From an uncultured Pseudomonadota bacterium (GTDB taxonomy: Bacteria > Myxococcota_A > UBA796 > SXON01): DNA of 33,708 bases. The stretch covers positions 1 to 33,708 of the forward strand of contig CAJBVW010000336.1 of NCBI GenBank assembly GCA_903959175.1, in the 5' to 3' direction. Positions 41-11,614 of this stretch are shown piece after piece (position 1 is the stretch's first letter; each line of letters starts with the position of its first letter). The translations under genes and the position numbers were made by a program. The notes under the pieces were generated by a model. That model had not been told where the DNA came from, searched no databases, and saw only the letters and a list, made by a program, of their open reading frames with translations.

Positions 41-2326
41 GTGAGCGCCGGGCTCGCGCCGCCCGTCGCGCCGACCGAGGACCCGACGCGCCGGATCGTC
101 GAGGACGGGCTCCAGCTCGTCCGCGAGCACGAGATCGAGGCCTGCTTCACCGTCGGTAACGGCGCCGCAGGGGTGCGCGGGTCGATCTCGGAGGGGACGC
201 CGCACTCGGCGCCGGGCACCCGGGTCGCGGGCGCCTGGCTGAGGGCCACCCCCGAGAGCCTCCCGACGCTCGCGCGCACGCCCGAGTGGACTCGCCTTCG
301 CATCCGCGTGGGCGACGCCGACCTCGAGATGGTCGAGGGGACGGACGGCCACCGGCGCGTGCTCGACCTCGCGCAGGGGATGTACTGGCGGACGTGGCGG
401 CACGTCGGAGACGACGGCCGCGTCACGCTCCTGCGCGTCGCGCGCTTCGCGTCGATGGCGGACCGCCGGCTCCTCGGCGAGCGCGTCGAGCTCACGACGG
501 AGAACTGGGGGGGGCCGCTGGAGGTGGAGGCGCGGGTGAGCGAGGGAGACTGCTGGACGCGTACCGGGCCGACCACCTGGACGGGGCCCGCGCCGTGCGC
601 GATCGGCCTCGCCTTCCACGGCACACCCTCCCCCACCGACACGCTCGACGGGCCCGGCACCCCCATCCGCCCTGCGGCCGACAGGCCCCCTCCCCTCGCC
701 GCCGCCGAGCCGCTCCCCGCGCCCGAGACGCCCGGCGCGTCCCCCGGCCTCGAGCCCGCACACACCCTCGCGCGTTGGCGCGTCGTCACCCGCCCCGGCG
801 CGACGTGGCGGCTCGACCGCGCGCACGCCTTCGCGCGGCGCCCCGTGGAGGAGGATGCCTGCGCGCCCGATCCGAGCGCCGACACCTCCGCGCTGCTCGC
901 GCTCGCCGAGCGCACCGTGGAGCGCGGCCTCGATCACGCCGTCGCCGACCACGTCGTCGCCTGCCGCACCCGCGTGGACGCGCTCGCCGTGACCCTCGAG
1001 GGCGACGCCCCCCTCCAGCGCGCCCTCGCCTTCGCCGCCCACCACCTCGTCGCGGCCGCCAACCCCGAGGACGACCGCGTCTCCATCGGCGCCCGCGCGC
1101 TCACCGGCGGCGCCTACATGGGCCACGTCTTCTGGGACACCGAGCTCTGGCTGCTCCCCGTCTACACCCTCACCTGGCCCCGCGCGGCCCGCGCCCTCTG
1201 CCGCTACCGTTGGCACCTCCTCCCCGCCGCCCGCGAGCGCGCCCTCGCGATGGGCTACCGCGGCGCCCTCTACGCGTGGGAGTCCGCGGGGAGCGGCGAC
1301 GACGTGACGCCCCCGTTCGTCCGCATGCCCGACGGTCGTGAGGCGCGCGTGTTCGCGGGCGAGCGCGAGCACCACGTGAGCGCGGCGGTGGCGTGGGCCG
1401 CGTGGCACTACTGGAGCTGGACCGGCGACGACGCGTACCTCCGCGACGCCGGCGCCGAGGTCATCCTGGAGACGGCGCGCTTCTGGGCGAGCCGCGGGCG
1501 CATGGAGGCGGACGGCCGCTTCCACATCCGCCACGTCGTGGGCCCCGACGAGTACCACGACGACGTGGACGACAACGCCTACACCAACGGGATGGCCGCC
1601 TGGAACTTGCAACGCGGCGCGGAGGTCGCCCGACGGATGGCCCGCGCGTGGCCCGAGCGCTGGGCCGCGCTCGCCGCGGCCCTCGCCCTCACCCCGGACG
1701 AGCCCGCCGCGTGGGAGTCCGCCGCCGCCGCGATGTACACCGGCTTCGACCCGCGCACGGGCCTCATCGAGCAGTTCGCCGGGTACTTCGCCCTCGAAGA
1801 TGTGCCGCTCGACGCCCTCGAGCCGCGCACGGCGCCCGTGGACGTGCTCCTCGGCGCCGACCGCGTCCGCGGCTCCCAGCTCCTCAAGCAGGCGGACGTC
1901 GTCCTGCTCCTCCAGCTCCTCGGCGACCGCTTCCCCCCCGAGGTCCACGCCGCCAACTTCCGCTACTACGCGGCGCGCACGGGCCACGGCAGCTCGCTCT
2001 CGCCCTCCATCTACGCCCTCGCGGCCGCGCGCCTCGGCGAGGACGTCGCCGCCGAGCGCTACCTCCGCCAGGCCGCCTCCATCGATCTGGAGGACCACTT
2101 CGGGAACGCCGCGGGGGGCGTCCACATCGGCTCGCTCGGCGGGCTCTGGCAGGCGGTGGTGTTCGGCTACGCCGGCCTCACGCTCGGACCCGACGGACCG
2201 ACCCTCGCCCCGCGCATGCCCCCGTGGCTGCGCCGCCTCACGTTCCCCTTCGTGTGGCGGGAGCGCCGCTTCCGCGCCGAGATCGACGCCGGCCGCGCCC
2301 GGCTCGTGCCGGAGGGCGCGTGGTGA
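41..2326 (+). CDS. Glycoside hydrolase family 65 disaccharide phosphorylase (kojibiose/trehalose/maltose phosphorylase-like)
   Basis: The 761-residue length and motif set fit GH65 inverting phosphorylases, which split an alpha-linked glucose disaccharide with phosphate to beta-glucose 1-phosphate and a sugar. Residues about 20-270 look like the N-terminal beta-sandwich (FTVGNGAAGVRG near the start) and about 300-690 the alpha/alpha barrel. The general acid is Glu504 in GPDEYH (501-506). KQAD at 616-619 and HGSSLS at 649-654 match the family's phosphate-site motifs, favouring phosphorolysis over hydrolysis. Which disaccharide is used cannot be told. There is no signal peptide, so it should be cytoplasmic. 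The GTG start follows a G-rich stretch; the frame is open to the window edge, so a start further upstream is possible. Its stop overlaps the next gene by four bases. Confidence 0.88.
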   Translation: MSAGLAPPVAPTEDPTRRIVEDGLQLVREHEIEACFTVGNGAAGVRGSISEGTPHSAPGTRVAGAWLRATPESLPTLARTPEWTRLRIRVGDADLEMVEGTDGHRRVLDLAQGMYWRTWRHVGDDGRVTLLRVARFASMADRRLLGERVELTTENWGGPLEVEARVSEGDCWTRTGPTTWTGPAPCAIGLAFHGTPSPTDTLDGPGTPIRPAADRPPPLAAAEPLPAPETPGASPGLEPAHTLARWRVVTRPGATWRLDRAHAFARRPVEEDACAPDPSADTSALLALAERTVERGLDHAVADHVVACRTRVDALAVTLEGDAPLQRALAFAAHHLVAAANPEDDRVSIGARALTGGAYMGHVFWDTELWLLPVYTLTWPRAARALCRYRWHLLPAARERALAMGYRGALYAWESAGSGDDVTPPFVRMPDGREARVFAGEREHHVSAAVAWAAWHYWSWTGDDAYLRDAGAEVILETARFWASRGRMEADGRFHIRHVVGPDEYHDDVDDNAYTNGMAAWNLQRGAEVARRMARAWPERWAALAAALALTPDEPAAWESAAAAMYTGFDPRTGLIEQFAGYFALEDVPLDALEPRTAPVDVLLGADRVRGSQLLKQADVVLLLQLLGDRFPPEVHAANFRYYAARTGHGSSLSPSIYALAAARLGEDVAAERYLRQAASIDLEDHFGNAAGGVHIGSLGGLWQAVVFGYAGLTLGPDGPTLAPRMPPWLRRLTFPFVWRERRFRAEIDAGRARLVPEGAW

Positions 2327-5756: not shown

Positions 5757-6356
5757 TCACTCCACCGTGAGCGCGAACTCGACCATCGCGTCCGTCTCGC
5801 CGGGCAGCCCGTCGAGCCCGTCGACGGCGACGCCCTCCGCGAGCGTGCCGGTCTTCACCGCGGCGTCGTTCTCCGGCGGCAGGTGGCGGAGCGTAACGAC
5901 GAACGTGCCACCGCCCACGCCGAGCGTGGCAACCGTGTTGGACAGGCCCACGGGGAACCCGTTGACGTCGGTGTCCTCGTACGATTGGGTCACGACGGCG
6001 TCCGCGTTGTCGCCCGTCGCGGGGCCCTCGACCGCCGTGCCCGTGAAGAACACCTGGTGTTGGTCGCTCTCCGCGTCCACCTCCTCGGTGATGTCCTCGG
6101 CGGGGGCTTCCAGCTCGTTGAGGAAGGACACGCCCAGGGTGTAGGTCTCGGCGTCGGCGAGCACGATGGGGTCGACGACGGGGGTGCCGTCGTTCTCGGG
6201 GTCCGCCCAGGCGAAGGTCCGGGCGTCGCCGCCGGACGCGGGGGAGAACGAGAGGGCGACGGTGGTGATCACCTCCTCGGCGTTCACCTCTTCGGGGTTG
6301 GTCGTGTCACCGCAAGCGACGAGGAGGGCGAGGACGGAGAGGAGCGGAGCGCGCAT
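5757..6356 (-). CDS. Small acidic lipoprotein paired with TonB-dependent receptor
   Basis: A 199-residue lipoprotein: the signal MRAPLLSVLALLVAC ends in a lipobox at Cys15 and is followed by a strongly acidic mature protein. It contains ITTVALSFSPASGG near the N-terminus, a DITEEVDAESDQHQVFF stretch in the middle and VVTLRHLPPENDAAVK toward the end. From memory these resemble small secreted proteins found next to TonB-dependent receptors in Bacteroidetes, labelled in databases as a type 1 periplasmic binding fold superfamily; I could not search. Such pairing suggests a surface or periplasmic ligand-capture partner of the receptor, but the ligand is unknown. It starts 24 bases after the receptor stop (AGAAGG precedes the ATG), so it is the last gene of that operon. 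Confidence 0.7.
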   Translation of the reverse strand: MRAPLLSVLALLVACGDTTNPEEVNAEEVITTVALSFSPASGGDARTFAWADPENDGTPVVDPIVLADAETYTLGVSFLNELEAPAEDITEEVDAESDQHQVFFTGTAVEGPATGDNADAVVTQSYEDTDVNGFPVGLSNTVATLGVGGGTFVVTLRHLPPENDAAVKTGTLAEGVAVDGLDGLPGETDAMVEFALTVE

Positions 6357-6380: not shown

Positions 6381-8876
6381 TCAGAAGTCGAGGCCGAGGC
6401 GCAGGCGCACCTCACGCCCGGGCTCGTCGGCGTAGTACCGGAGCAGGCTGGTGTAGTCGCGGTAGCGGGCGTTCAATAGGTTGTTGGCTTCGATCCCCAC
6501 CTTCAGGCTCCGCGCGCCCAGGGGGATGCGGGCGCCCACCGCCGCGCCGAGCAGGAGGTAGCCGTCGGGAGGAGGCGCGAGCTCGGCTCCGTCTGCCACG
6601 CGCGTCTGCTCGAAGACGTAGAGCCCCGAGGCCTCGGCGAAGAGGTCGGCGAAGGGCCCCACGTCGGGGGGCGCGAACCGCAGCGCGGCCTGGACGCGGT
6701 CGGCGGGGGTCATCACGAGGGGGGCGTTCGTCGCGGTGTCCACGGCGCGGACGATGGCGCCCTGGACGGTGAGGCCGACGGGGGCGTCGGGGCCGACGGT
6801 GAAGCCGCCGTCCACGCCGTAGAATACGGCGTCCACCGGGCGGAAGCTGAAGCGCGGAAACGCGCCCTCGATCGTCACGTCGACCACGGGGGTGCCGTCC
6901 GCCCGGATCTCGGGGGCGAAGTAGACGTAGTCGTCGATGACGTTGACGTAGGTGGAGACCTCCGCCTCCAACGCCGGGAGCCGCAGGCCGAGCGTCGGCG
7001 TGGCGCCCCACGTCGTCTCGGTGCCGAGGCTCGGATCGCCGAGCGCGTAGACGGGGGAGGTCGGCGCGCTCCCGTTCATGTCGAGCTCGTCCGCGTTGGG
7101 GACGCGCGTCGCGGAGGACAGGTCGAGGCGCGCCTCGAGGCGGTCCGGCAGGATGTGCCAGATGCCGCCGAGCGAGGCGGTGGCGGCGTCGTAGGCGGCC
7201 GGGCAACGCGCGGCGTCGGCGCTGACCGCGCAGTCCGCCTCCGCGAGGGTGCCCCGCGCGACGCTCCGCTCGAAGGCGGAGCGGGTCAGGTACGCGGCGC
7301 GGGAGAGGTGGTCGTAGCGCGCGCCGGCCTCGAGCTCGACGGGGCCGGCGGCGAGGCGCTCGAAGCCGAACACCCCGAACTGGAACGCGCGGAAGTTGGG
7401 GATGAGCGGCAGCCCCCGGTACACGTTCTCCTGGAAGGTCCCGGCGAGCCCTACGCCGCCGGCGAGCTCGCCCAGCTTCCCGAGCGCCACGGGCGCGTGG
7501 TCGAGCGTCGCGTCGAGGCTGTGCGTGCGGAGCGTGAAGTCGTACTGGGCGCCGGTGATCGCGGCCCGCACGGGCTCGTACTCCTGCCGGAGGTTGGCCT
7601 GGAAGGCGTAGGTCAGCTTGAGGTCGGCGCCGCCCGGCAGCGCGAGCTCCACCCGCGCGAGGGCGATGTCGTGGGTGACCGCCTGCGAGGGGCGGTCGAT
7701 GGTGTAGGTCTGCGTCCAGCGGTCGGCGCCCAGCGGCGCGTCGGCGTCGAGCTGGGAGAGGAAGTCGTCGGGCGTCCCGCTCTGGACGCAGTAGCAGACG
7801 CCGCTCTGCAGGTCGAAGTGATGGTAGGAGACCTTCAGTTGGGTGACAGCGCCGGTGTACCCCACGGTCGCGCCCAGGTTCCAGCCCTCGCTGCCGGTGT
7901 TCCCCAGCAGGTAGGTGGGCGTCCTCAGCGCCGCACCCCGCGAATAGTTGCCTTCGACGCGCCATGTCAGCTCCGGCACCGCCGCGAACACGCCGTCCAC
8001 CCGCGCCGCACCCACCGCGCGGAGCCCGTTGTCGACGCCCACGAGCTGCACCCTCCCGCCGACGCCCGGCTCGGTGCGCAACGGCGGCGGCTCCACGAGC
8101 ACCACCCCGCCGATCGCGTCGGGCCCGTAACGTACGCCCGCCGCCCCCTTGATCACGTGGATGGAGCCCGCGGCGAACGGGTCGATCTCGGTCGCGTGGT
8201 CCAGGCCCCACTTCTGGCTCTCGTGGCGCACGCCGTCGAACAACACGAGCAGCCGCCGCTCGAACTGCCCGCGGATGATGGGCTTCGACACGTCCGAGTT
8301 GCCCCGCGCCACCGCGACGCCGGGCACGTCCGACAGAGCCTCGCCGAGGTCCTCGCCGCCGGCCCGGTCGAGGGCCTCCACGCCGATCGTCGTGACGGAG
8401 TGCAGCTCGTGGGAGGCCACGCTCCGCGCGCGCGCCACCACCAGCTCGTCGGAGCCCGCGACGTCTTCGAGGGGCGGCGCCTCGATCGGCGGCTCGAAGT
8501 GGAAGCTGACGGCGAGGCGCGTGACGACCGGCACGCCGTCGCGGGTGGCGGGCGCGAACCCGAGCGCGCGCGCGGCGGCGAGCGCGGGCGGCACGAGCAC
8601 GTCGGGGCCACCGGACGCGAAGACCGCGTCGGTGACGACGCCCTCGGGGCTCACCGTCACGTGCACGGTCACGTCCCCGACCACCGCGTCGGCCAGCGCC
8701 TCGGCCGGGTACTCCGGCACCACCTGCGCGAGGAGGCGGGCCCCCACGCGCACGGGGGCCGCGGGCGTCTCCGGCGCGGGGGCCTCCGGTGCGGGGGCGT
8801 CCGGTGCGGGCGCGTCCGCGGCGCGGGCCGGCGCCGCCGCGAGCATCCCCACCATCCACATCGACCACACGCGCAT
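6381..8876 (-). CDS. TonB-dependent outer-membrane receptor with an N-terminal TonB C-terminal-like domain
   Basis: An 831-residue receptor. Order: a cleavable signal ending APARA (residues 1-19); an Ala/Pro/Asp/Glu linker (20-40); a TonB energy-transducer C-terminal-like domain (about 41-128, VVPEYPAEA to VTRLAVSFHF); a TonB-box-like DELVVAR (143-149); a plug (about 155-265, with IRGQFERRLLVLFDGVR and GPDAIGGVVLVEP); then a beta-barrel ending in LRLGLDF with terminal Phe. It should import a scarce nutrient across the outer membrane. The substrate is unknown; a CYC pair occurs in a probable loop. The TonB-like domain normally sits in a separate inner-membrane-anchored protein. ATG 8876 starts the signal peptide; ATG 8933, in frame, would add 19 Arg-rich residues. 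It lies just downstream of regA. Confidence 0.85.
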   Translation of the reverse strand: MRVWSMWMVGMLAAAPARAADAPAPDAPAPEAPAPETPAAPVRVGARLLAQVVPEYPAEALADAVVGDVTVHVTVSPEGVVTDAVFASGGPDVLVPPALAAARALGFAPATRDGVPVVTRLAVSFHFEPPIEAPPLEDVAGSDELVVARARSVASHELHSVTTIGVEALDRAGGEDLGEALSDVPGVAVARGNSDVSKPIIRGQFERRLLVLFDGVRHESQKWGLDHATEIDPFAAGSIHVIKGAAGVRYGPDAIGGVVLVEPPPLRTEPGVGGRVQLVGVDNGLRAVGAARVDGVFAAVPELTWRVEGNYSRGAALRTPTYLLGNTGSEGWNLGATVGYTGAVTQLKVSYHHFDLQSGVCYCVQSGTPDDFLSQLDADAPLGADRWTQTYTIDRPSQAVTHDIALARVELALPGGADLKLTYAFQANLRQEYEPVRAAITGAQYDFTLRTHSLDATLDHAPVALGKLGELAGGVGLAGTFQENVYRGLPLIPNFRAFQFGVFGFERLAAGPVELEAGARYDHLSRAAYLTRSAFERSVARGTLAEADCAVSADAARCPAAYDAATASLGGIWHILPDRLEARLDLSSATRVPNADELDMNGSAPTSPVYALGDPSLGTETTWGATPTLGLRLPALEAEVSTYVNVIDDYVYFAPEIRADGTPVVDVTIEGAFPRFSFRPVDAVFYGVDGGFTVGPDAPVGLTVQGAIVRAVDTATNAPLVMTPADRVQAALRFAPPDVGPFADLFAEASGLYVFEQTRVADGAELAPPPDGYLLLGAAVGARIPLGARSLKVGIEANNLLNARYRDYTSLLRYYADEPGREVRLRLGLDF

Positions 8877-8945
8877 CGGACCGGTTCGTTGGTCCGCCTC
8901 GTAGCGTCGGCGCTGAGAGCGGGTCCGCGGCATGACGTCGCAGGG

Positions 8946-9455
8946 TCAGCGCGCGGGGGGCAGCTTCTGGAGCTTGCGTTGGAGCGTGCGCCGGTGGAGC
9001 CCGAGGCGGCGCGCGGCCTCGCTGATGTTCCCGCCGCAGGCCTGGAGCACGCCGAGGATGTGCCCCCGCTCCACCGCGTCGAGCGACTCCGCCGGGAGCG
9101 GGTCCACCGCGTCCCGGAGCGCCTGCACCAGCTCCGCGCCCGTCAGCGGCTTGGTGCGGAAGTCCACGGCGCCCGCGCGCATGGCCTCCACCGCGGCCGC
9201 GATGGTGCCGTGCCCCGAGAGCATCACACATCGGCACGCGGGCACGCTCGCCGCGAGCATGCGCACCACGGACACGCCGTCGCCGTCCTCCAGCCGGAGG
9301 TCGACCAGCGCGAGGTCCGGCGGCGTCGCCGCGCACGCCCCCGTCGCCTCCGTCAGCCCGTTCACGAGCACGGCCCGGAAGCCGGCGCGGCGCAGCGTTC
9401 GCCCGAGGGCGTCTCGGTAGGCGCCGTCGTCCTCCACCACGAGCACGGTCAGCAC
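8946..9455 (-). CDS. regA: RegA/PrrA/ActR-type response regulator
   Basis: A 169-residue two-domain regulator. The receiver (1-115) has the acidic pocket EDD (8-10), phosphoacceptor Asp52 in LALVDLRL, Ser80 and Lys102. A short Pro-containing linker leads to a Fis-type helix-turn-helix (about 125-165) with GGNISEAARRLGLHRRTLQR, close to the very conserved DNA-binding end of the RegA/PrrA/ActR family. These regulators control respiration, carbon and nitrogen genes with redox state. I chose GTG 9455, which overlaps the kinase stop by seven bases; GTG 9446 is a possible alternative. It is co-transcribed with the sensor and precedes the TonB receptor by at most 69 bases, so it probably also controls that operon. 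Confidence 0.85.
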   Translation of the reverse strand: MLTVLVVEDDGAYRDALGRTLRRAGFRAVLVNGLTEATGACAATPPDLALVDLRLEDGDGVSVVRMLAASVPACRCVMLSGHGTIAAAVEAMRAGAVDFRTKPLTGAELVQALRDAVDPLPAESLDAVERGHILGVLQACGGNISEAARRLGLHRRTLQRKLQKLPPAR

Positions 9456-10729
9456 GCGGGCACCCGCGGCATCTGCACCGTCACGCGCGCCCCGCCCGCG
9501 GGCCCCGGCGCGAGCGCGACCTCCCCGCCCACCGACTGCGCGAAGCTCCGCGCCACGAACAGCCCGAGCCCCGTGCCGCCCCAGCCCGTCCGGAACGGCT
9601 CGCCGCTCCGGGCCGCCTCCTCCGCAGAGAGCCCCCGCCCGTCGTCCGAGATGTACAGCTCGATCCCTGCTTCTCCCTCGTGCGTCTCGACCACCACCTC
9701 CCGCGCCCCCGCCCGCCGCGCGTTGTCCAGCATCACCCACACCGCGCCGCGCCAGCTCGCCTCCGAACCCGCGATCCGCCCGCCCGCCACGCCGCCTTCC
9801 CGCCGCACGGCCACCTCGGGCGCTGCCCGCGCCCACTCGAGCACCCACCCGTCCACGTCGGGCACGCAGTCCGCCGCGCCGCCCCCGTCCGCTCCGCGCA
9901 GCCGATCGAGGATCGACCGGCACCGCGCCACCTCGGTCAGCAGCGCGGCCATCTGCTCGGGCGACGGCGCCTCGCCCGCCTCCTCGGCCAGGAGCTGGAT
10001 GGTGCCCAGCGGCGTCCCGAGCTCGTGCGCCACGCCCGCTGCGAGCGTCCCCAGCGCGGCGAGCCGCTCCGTGACGGCGCGACGCCGCTGCGCCTCCCGC
10101 TCCCGGGTGTCCCGCTCCCGCAGCGTCGTCGACAGCTGGTTGACCACCCAGGTCACCGCGATGGCGGCGAGGTCGAACGTGAGGACGTGCCCGACCACGT
10201 GCACCGGGGTCAGCGCCTCGGGCACCAGCCCGTCGACGTGCCCGGGGTTGAGCACCGCGATCGCCTGGAGCACCATCGCCCCGATCGCGACGGTCCACGC
10301 CCCGCGCGCCGGGAGCACGAGCGCGAGGAGCGCCAGGTAGACGAGGTACGCGGCCATCAGCGGGTTCTGGATGCCGCCGGAGAGCAGGAGGATCCCGGTC
10401 AGCGCGCAGAGATCGACGGCTCCGTGGGCGAGCGCCAGCCACGGGGGTTGCCCGTGGCGCCGGACCCACACGGCTTGCCCCACGTCCACCAGGATGAGCC
10501 CCGAGAGGATCGTCAGCAGCTCGGGCGAGTGCACGTGGATGTCGGTGCCGGCCTCCGCCACCAGCATCAGCAGGAGCTGGATCGCGAGCGCGCCCCGACG
10601 CGCGCGCGTGAGCCACCGCAACGCCAGCTCGGGGTCGGCCAGCGAGGGGGCGGCGGCGGGAGGGCGGCGGGCATGCCCCGGGCAGATACCGGGGCGCGGG
10701 CCGGGGGACCATGCGTCAAGATGTCGCAT
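9449..10729 (-). CDS. regB: RegB/PrrB-type redox sensor histidine kinase
   Basis: A 426-residue membrane kinase. About five or six hydrophobic segments fill residues 45-200; the loop motif GGIQNPL (118-124) matches the GGxxNPF quinone-sensing signature of RegB. A charged linker (about 203-218) leads to the dimerisation domain with phosphoacceptor His235 in HELGTPLGTI, and Cys270 in ARCRSIL corresponds to the redox-active cysteine known in RegB. The ATPase domain has the N-box Asn336, DDGRG (362-366) and GGTGLGL (384-390). The protein should sense quinone pool and thiol redox state and phosphorylate RegA. ATG 10729 is the first plausible start after the upstream tRNA terminator; the frame stays open further upstream through the tRNA gene. 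Confidence 0.85.
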   Translation of the reverse strand: MRHLDAWSPGPRPGICPGHARRPPAAAPSLADPELALRWLTRARRGALAIQLLLMLVAEAGTDIHVHSPELLTILSGLILVDVGQAVWVRRHGQPPWLALAHGAVDLCALTGILLLSGGIQNPLMAAYLVYLALLALVLPARGAWTVAIGAMVLQAIAVLNPGHVDGLVPEALTPVHVVGHVLTFDLAAIAVTWVVNQLSTTLRERDTREREAQRRRAVTERLAALGTLAAGVAHELGTPLGTIQLLAEEAGEAPSPEQMAALLTEVARCRSILDRLRGADGGGAADCVPDVDGWVLEWARAAPEVAVRREGGVAGGRIAGSEASWRGAVWVMLDNARRAGAREVVVETHEGEAGIELYISDDGRGLSAEEAARSGEPFRTGWGGTGLGLFVARSFAQSVGGEVALAPGPAGGARVTVQMPRVPAC

Positions 10730-10747
10730 GCACCGGGCGCGGCCCCG

Positions 10748-10787
10748 AAACGAGAAACGCCCAACCTGCGTTTCCGCTGGATGGGCG
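10748..10787 (-). terminator. Rho-independent terminator of tRNA-Thr
   Basis: Read on the minus strand, CGCCCA (10787-10782) pairs with TGGGCG (10763-10758). An inner stem closes on a GAAA loop, and TTTCTCGTTT follows. It starts 14 bases after the tRNA 3' end. On the plus strand the same hairpin is followed by CTTCTTTT, so it may work in both directions. It separates the tRNA from regB. Confidence 0.65.
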
Positions 10788-10800
10788 CTTCTTTTCGGAC

Positions 10801-10876
10801 TGGAGCCGAAGATCGGAGTTGAACCGACGACCTGCTGATTACGAATCAGCTGCTCTGCCAACTGAGCTACTTCGGC
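10801..10876 (-). tRNA. tRNA-Thr (anticodon CGT)
   Basis: A 76-base tRNA on the minus strand. The acceptor stem GCCGAAG/CTTCGGC pairs perfectly. The D arm has AGTTGG, and the anticodon stem GCTGA/TCAGC encloses the loop TTCGTAA, giving anticodon CGT, which reads the ACG Thr codon. The T loop is TTCAACT, and the 3' CCA is encoded in the DNA (complement of 10801-10803). ACG is a common codon in this GC-rich genome. A consensus-like promoter lies directly upstream and a hairpin terminator downstream. Confidence 0.97.
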
Positions 10877-10886
10877 TTGCCGCTGC

Positions 10887-10915
10887 CTTCTAAGACGTCG
10901 CCGCGGTATCGTCAA
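10887..10915 (-). promoter_or_regulatory. Sigma-70-type promoter of tRNA-Thr
   Basis: On the minus strand TTGACG (10915-10910) is followed by a 17-base spacer and TAGAAG (10892-10887), ending 10 bases before the mature tRNA 5' end at 10876. The -35 box is nearly consensus and the -10 box matches four of six bases. The -35 box lies immediately before the start codon of the divergent lipoprotein gene. Confidence 0.6.
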
Positions 10916-10918
10916 CGC

Positions 10919-11614
10919 ATGTGGTCGCTCCTCGTCGCCTGCGCCGCGCCCCCCGCGCCGGCCCCACCCGTCCCGCCGGCCGCACCCGCCGCGCGCGCGG
11001 TCTGGTCCCTCGTCGGCCGCGCCACCTCCGACGGCCTCGACACCCCTCCCCTCCCCGACGGCACCGCCGTCCTCGGCCCCGCGTGCGCCACCGTCAACGC
11101 CTCGCTCCACGGCGACGGCCCCCCGTGCCTCGTCGAGGACTGGACCGACGGCCCAACCACCGTCCGGGTCACCCGCGCCGGCGCACGCCTCCGCTTCGAC
11201 GGCGCCCCCGGCCGCACCACCTGGACCCCCATTGCCGGTATCCTCTCGGCCTGCCTCGGCGACCCCCTCGCGCTCCCGCCCGCGCGCGATCCCGTCGGGC
11301 AGCGGATCCTCGACGGCGCCACCTGGCTCCTCGCCCTCTCCGGCCAGAACATGTGCGGCCTCTCCGGCACGCTCCGCCTCGACGTCACCCGGGACCACGC
11401 CGACTGGAGCGACCTCTCTGCCGACGGCCTGCCGTGGTCCAAAGGTGGCCGCGAAGCCGCACAGATCCACGTCCGCGCGCAGCTCCGCGAGGTCGTCCGC
11501 ACCCGCTGGAGCACGCTCGACCCCGACTCCCGCGACGACGCCCTCCGCGCCCTCGCCCTCGATCCGCATCCGGACGCGAAGGCGTTGCTCAAAGCTAAAT
11601 CCTCGAAACGATAG
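10919..11614 (+). CDS. Hypothetical Pro/Ala-rich lipoprotein
   Basis: A 231-residue protein I do not recognise. From ATG 10919 the N-terminus is MWSLLVACAAPP, a lipobox-like cysteine at residue 8 followed by a Pro/Ala linker to about residue 30. The rest is a mixed-composition domain with several cysteines (in GPACATVN, PPCLVED, LSACLGDP and QNMCGLSG), possibly disulphide-bonded in the periplasm, and a charged, helical C-terminus ending KAKSSKR. A TTG at 10877 in frame would give a more usual signal with basic residues, but it abuts the tRNA 5' end and overlaps its promoter. No ribosome site is clear for either. Function unknown. Confidence 0.6.
   Translation: MWSLLVACAAPPAPAPPVPPAAPAARAVWSLVGRATSDGLDTPPLPDGTAVLGPACATVNASLHGDGPPCLVEDWTDGPTTVRVTRAGARLRFDGAPGRTTWTPIAGILSACLGDPLALPPARDPVGQRILDGATWLLALSGQNMCGLSGTLRLDVTRDHADWSDLSADGLPWSKGGREAAQIHVRAQLREVVRTRWSTLDPDSRDDALRALALDPHPDAKALLKAKSSKR

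Follow-up and report, generated by a model that had tools for sequence, protein, structure and literature searches.

TonB C-terminal domains as recurrent, exchangeable N-terminal modules of TonB-dependent receptors in one bacterial phylum

TonB is described as binding its receptors by taking up the TonB box of the receptor as a parallel strand on beta3 of its C-terminal domain, or CTD (accessible parts of PMC11658791 and PMC6699858). Small periplasmic domains lie ahead of the box in several known systems: the STN domain in transducers such as FecA, FpvA and FoxA, and the carboxypeptidase-regulatory-like N-terminal extension (NTE) in receptors of Oar and SusC type, for which the accessible part of PMC7782687 gives an Ig-like fold. 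In the same part of that paper, NTE deletion in a Bacteroides SusC protein abolished growth on levan, and the authors suggested specificity for TonB paralogues as a possible NTE role; in the available excerpt of PMC6434023, the NTE of Myxococcus xanthus Oar could be removed without loss of function (secretion). That excerpt also reports a survey of 34,893 receptors and names five N-terminal architectures, a TonB_C-headed one not being among those it lists. The literature searched gave no account of a receptor headed by TonB_C; it covered few subscription papers, so that this absence is weak. The model of the myxochelin receptor MxcH (NF038079) starts with the same domain, the 88-residue domain described below matching its profile positions 3-83 when isolated (E 5.3e-10), and the arrangement is therefore already present in named proteins; MxcH is, however, a subfamily separate from the receptor studied here, which scored 50.3 bits as a whole against an equivalog cut-off of 925.

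This receptor is encoded on the minus strand at positions 6381-8876 of the window (the whole 33,708-nucleotide stretch that was analysed) and has 831 residues by translation. An alternative upstream ATG at 8933 gives a longer frame; the 8876 start was preferred because its signal sequence resembles that of L107, an ortholog 70% identical to the window's receptor. Both Plug (PF07715) and barrel (PF00593) scored above cut-off and the fold matches agreed, identifying the protein as a TonB-dependent receptor. The originally predicted order, from signal peptide through a Pro/Ala/Asp linker and TonB_C to plug and barrel, was seen in the translation and in Pfam (Table 1). The stretch DELVVAR, a candidate TonB box, is degenerate and lines up, by eye and in the alignment, with box-like stretches of relatives.

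Table 1. Features of the receptor gene and its neighbours, with coordinates in the window.
Feature	Coordinates	Strand	Basis
Signal peptide, residues 1-20, MRVWSMWMVGMLAAAPARAA	8817..8876	-	Translation; cleavage site by eye, Ala-x-Ala end
Pro/Ala/Asp-rich linker, residues 21-40	8757..8816	-	Translation; low pLDDT in AlphaFold model
TonB C-terminal domain, residues 41-128 (Pfam match 54-128)	8493..8756	-	PF03544, TIGR01352, fold
TonB-box-like DELVVAR, residues 143-149, disordered linker	8430..8450	-	Translation; alignment; pLDDT <50, unpaired
Plug domain, residues 159-258	8103..8402	-	PF07715, 73.5 bits
Beta-barrel, about residues 260-831, ZnuD-like	6384..8099	-	PF00593, 67.3 bits over 392-800; ZnuD 4rdr best match
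Partner lipoprotein gene (signal with Cys), no known family	5757..6356	-	Homolog beside receptor in 16 of 17 relatives
Response regulator, ActR/PrrA/RegA type, upstream	8946..9470	-	NF033791, 142.9 bits, below cut-off 250
Histidine kinase, ActS/PrrB/RegB type, upstream, approximate start	9449..11035	-	NF033792, 119.1 bits, below cut-off 350

The N-terminal domain was a TonB CTD. Searched with the whole receptor, Pfam TonB_C (PF03544) matched residues 54-128 at 40.9 bits (cut-off 24.6, E 2.9e-10) and NCBIfam TIGR01352 (tonB_Cterm) scored 34.5 bits (cut-off 27.1); residues 41-128 in isolation scored 45.8 and 38.6 bits respectively, and the boundaries first proposed for the domain, 41-128, were correct to within a few residues. 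Pfam gave no match at E≤1 to STN (PF07660), secretin or CarboxypepD_reg (PF13620/PF13715) in the window's receptor, and a secretin/STN or carboxypeptidase-like identity was rejected on this ground; neither Pfam nor the fold matches pointed to an unrelated domain. Compared with solved structures, the modelled domain was closest to a TonB CTD (VIA; Z 12.9, rmsd 1.8 over 82 residues), and the top 14 rows were all TonB or FusB CTDs (Z 12.9 to 8.3), TolA coming next at 7.2. The AlphaFold model of the mature receptor, built on an alignment of 18 orthologs (mean pLDDT 84.9), contained a well-formed TonB-type domain with a helix at 39-42, strands at 48-56 and 61-69, a helix at 73-84 and a strand at 100-108 (mature numbering); the order of these elements and a YP motif were also those of TonB CTDs. 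The difference lies in position: the domain is normally the C-terminus of an inner-membrane protein and here forms the N-terminus of a receptor, an arrangement that is confirmed as real.

The survey of frequency called for by the original prediction was run in ten genomes of the window's phylum, on which the whole-genome searches were centred. TonB_C preceded Plug in 25 of 92 Plug genes (24 of the 25 above the TonB_C cut-off) and in 9 of the 10 genomes: 6 of 13 genes in the window's genome and 19 of 79 in nine further genomes across the phylum, with 0 of 7 in G064. A one-genome oddity was thereby rejected, and TonB-dependent receptors headed by TonB_C recur as a variant across the phylum. In the other five fused receptors of the window's genome, unlike the window's receptor, TonB_C was separated from Plug by a carboxypeptidase-regulatory-like domain (three above the Pfam cut-off, two below). 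Among plasmids, 52 records matched a TonB_C-plus-Plug query, none covering more than 80% of it, with no sign of the fusion there. Other unusual TonB-like genes were seen during the survey: a 1324-residue receptor frame with two tandem TonB_C domains ahead of Plug, directly behind another TonB_C gene (G008:C102:39100-40787; L179, L180, L182); a row of four or more separate TonB-like frames, 199-306 residues in length, in a 4.2 kb stretch (G047:C16:266368-270571); and a 970-residue Ala/Pro-rich frame ending in TonB_C (L029 3179-6091, G000:C147), which could encode a TonB-like protein of unusual length or extend beyond the actual gene.

The slot occupied by TonB_C was exchangeable among orthologs. 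A whole-receptor search of 190 genomes of the phylum (E≤1e-20) found relatives in 14, the window's own genome included, and a scan of named genomes with the receptor gave 7 loci; 17 distinct relatives were compared after setting aside L100 and L103 (duplicates of L107 and L111) and the matches in G003 (fragments) and G071 (weak). Ahead of the plug, the 18 orthologs (window included) carried TonB_C in eight cases, a carboxypeptidase-regulatory-like domain in seven and no cap domain in three (L101, L102 and L111). TonB_C was above the Pfam cut-off in six of its eight cases and below it in L112 and L117; with the window excluded, it was present in 7 of 17, five above. The carboxypeptidase-regulatory-like domain was above the cut-off in L104, L105, L114 and L116 and below it in L106 and L118; in L115, where Pfam found no N-terminal domain, it was assigned by position and by eye. 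The tree of plug and barrel required at least five changes of cap state and placed the capless L101 as sister of the window's receptor and L107 (support 98/96), its other forks being weak; the cap has therefore been lost or replaced repeatedly, while the ZnuD-like receptor body, the box-like stretch (kept in all orthologs in the alignment, by eye) and, in 16 of the 17 relatives, the adjoining lipoprotein gene persisted. The contig of L101 (CAMCWU010000330.1), which encodes a close relative (61%) of the window's receptor, belongs to a metagenome-assembled genome titled Klebsiella pneumoniae, a label that looks wrong.

The fused domain differed from genuine TonB transducers in several respects. 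Neither a TonB-type transmembrane anchor nor an SHLS-like (S/G-x-H) motif was found near the receptor N-terminus, where the best 19-residue hydropathy was 1.09 vs. 2.08 in a control TonB of the same genome, which has an S/G-x-H motif at 26; TonB_C, at residues 54-128 of 831, was not C-terminal as in a TonB transducer. Since it has no inner-membrane anchor, the fused domain cannot be driven by ExbBD. A complete exbB-exbD-tonB set was present elsewhere in the window's genome (L026 4524-6342), directly followed by another receptor beginning with TonB_C, and more TonB_C genes lay near exbD genes at C318 and C177, so a substitute transducer is not needed; an energised TonB substitute was rejected on these grounds.

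The sequence signature of the domain was also distinct. The tryptophan near the end of helix 2, which we take to be the important Trp213 of E. coli, was present in 1 of 25 receptor-type TonB_C domains (mostly Phe or Leu in its place) vs. 21 of 37 C-terminal ones (p value 1e-5, which overstates independence because the rows are related). This comparison drew on 68 TonB_C rows from the ten genomes, namely all 11 of the window's genome and 57 of the 85 matches listed in the nine others (about 28 bits or more); the count leaves aside two gapped rows and four others that belong to neither the receptor nor the C-terminal group. Receptor rows were labelled by hand from the same contig, strand and frame length in the TonB_C and Plug listings; the fused gene of G112 C21 (TonB_C at 24.1 bits, below cut-off) falls outside the 25 compared domains, and the G008 C102 receptor contributes two. 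In a tree of TonB_C domains, weak because it has few columns and biased because top-scoring rows were used, the six sufficiently long members of the window's receptor family fell into one group (SH-aLRT 82), and the two kinds of label, receptor and transducer, were clustered (6 changes each vs. about 20 in shuffles). A recent fusion of a neighbouring tonB gene was rejected, the domains of receptors and adjacent transducers not being sisters in this short, weakly resolved tree.

With respect to L107, dN was 0.41 and dS 0.69 for TonB_C (dN/dS about 0.59), 0.10 and 0.66 for the plug (about 0.16), and 0.18 and 0.78 for the barrel (about 0.24); the dS values are rough, the G+C content being high. 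TonB_C is thus retained under purifying selection, though a less strict one than acts on the plug and barrel. With no anchor, the tryptophan mostly lost and faster evolution than the plug, the fused domain is an exchangeable accessory module and not a TonB substitute.

For this module we tentatively favour, at somewhat less than even probability, a role in docking or selectivity: the TonB-type cap would tune docking or the choice of TonB. The slot it fills ahead of the TonB box is the one taken in other receptors by an STN or carboxypeptidase-regulatory-like (NTE) domain. From there the cap could touch the incoming TonB, CTD to CTD, or stand beside the box, and its contact or position might set which of several TonB proteins bind, and when. 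This reading was preferred on four grounds: the cap sits where TonB docks, it is related to TonB itself, orthologs have in its place a domain for which such a role had already been suggested, and it is unable to transmit force. Its placement follows from the pairing of the box with beta3 of TonB and from the short linker by which the cap precedes the box; the cap is therefore near the docking place of the working TonB. Against docking stand the disordered tether on which both AlphaFold models put the domain, the dispensable NTE of Oar and the capless orthologs, and the fast evolution of TonB_C could equally accompany a weak function.

These same observations lend something to the view that the cap is a dispensable structural leftover or an aid to biogenesis with no part in energising transport, which we regard as unlikely: a cap missing in three of 18 orthologs, a fast-evolving TonB_C and an NTE that Oar can do without (available excerpt of PMC6434023) would all fit it, but eight of the 18 orthologs keep TonB_C, as do 25 of the 92 receptor genes in the ten genomes, and its dN/dS is below 1.

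A latch in cis, in which the fused domain would augment its beta-sheet with the receptor's own box and hide it until ligand binding frees it, is quite improbable. TonB CTDs do take boxes as a parallel strand on beta3 (accessible parts of PMC11658791 and PMC6699858), and the alignment places the box a short linker behind beta3. In the full-receptor model, however, the stretch 113-137 (mature numbering), which contains DELVVAR, had pLDDT <50 and was unpaired, and a second AlphaFold model, of the domain with the box fragment, agreed, both models being built on shallow alignments (18 and 8 rows respectively). To pair in parallel, the chain would also have to double back along beta3, and by eye the shortest linkers seem to leave little room for this. 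That the domain packs against the plug or the TonB box, as sought in the structure predictions, was not supported by the models.

The receptor body was nearest to ZnuD (profile 4rdr, E 3.2e-25; fold, E 3.9e-38), in both barrel and plug; further TonB-dependent receptors, among them OprC and haem receptors, ranked after it. On the ZnuD model NF038289 it scored 73.4 bits, below the cut-off of 950. The partner lipoprotein had no Pfam or NCBIfam match (best PDB match E 0.19); its homologs adjoined the receptor with or without a TonB_C cap and had a His/Asp-rich start in several relatives, which suggests a metal-handling partner. From the ZnuD-like barrel and the His-rich partner lipoproteins, zinc or another metal may be the substrate. 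At the window's start, 41-2326 (+) encodes a member of glycosyl hydrolase family 65; the frame that follows was judged universal-stress-like by eye.

The sensor-regulator pair at 8946-11035 bears on a further alternative, as doubtful as the latch, in which the cap would be an STN-like signalling module talking to an inner-membrane regulator. The slot is shared with STN, and this RegB/RegA-like pair lies directly upstream of the receptor in the window and in L107; yet Pfam detected no STN in the receptor and no TonB_C in the kinase, and close homologs of the pair stood beside the receptor in 1 of 17 relatives only, namely L107. Least probable, by a little, is a peptidoglycan-binding or positioning spacer: TonB CTDs have peptidoglycan affinity, but for the carboxypeptidase-like domains found in the cap's place we are aware of no such binding.

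A bolder reading, which we hold to be rather unlikely, is that a retired TonB domain would pair or compete with its counterpart in the working TonB, the receptor itself thereby screening the transducer or passing it on. If true, Ton coupling would be controlled from the receptor, for which the literature searched describes no counterpart. How a receptor secures TonB, when TonB is scarce, receptors are many and several TonB paralogues coexist, is an open question in the field, and close relatives that differ little in plug and barrel but are headed by a TonB-type cap, by an Ig-like one or by none are a natural experiment on cap function. For annotation, since the TIGR01352 domain model fires on TonB_C-headed receptors, these may be given the name of TonB family proteins in error.
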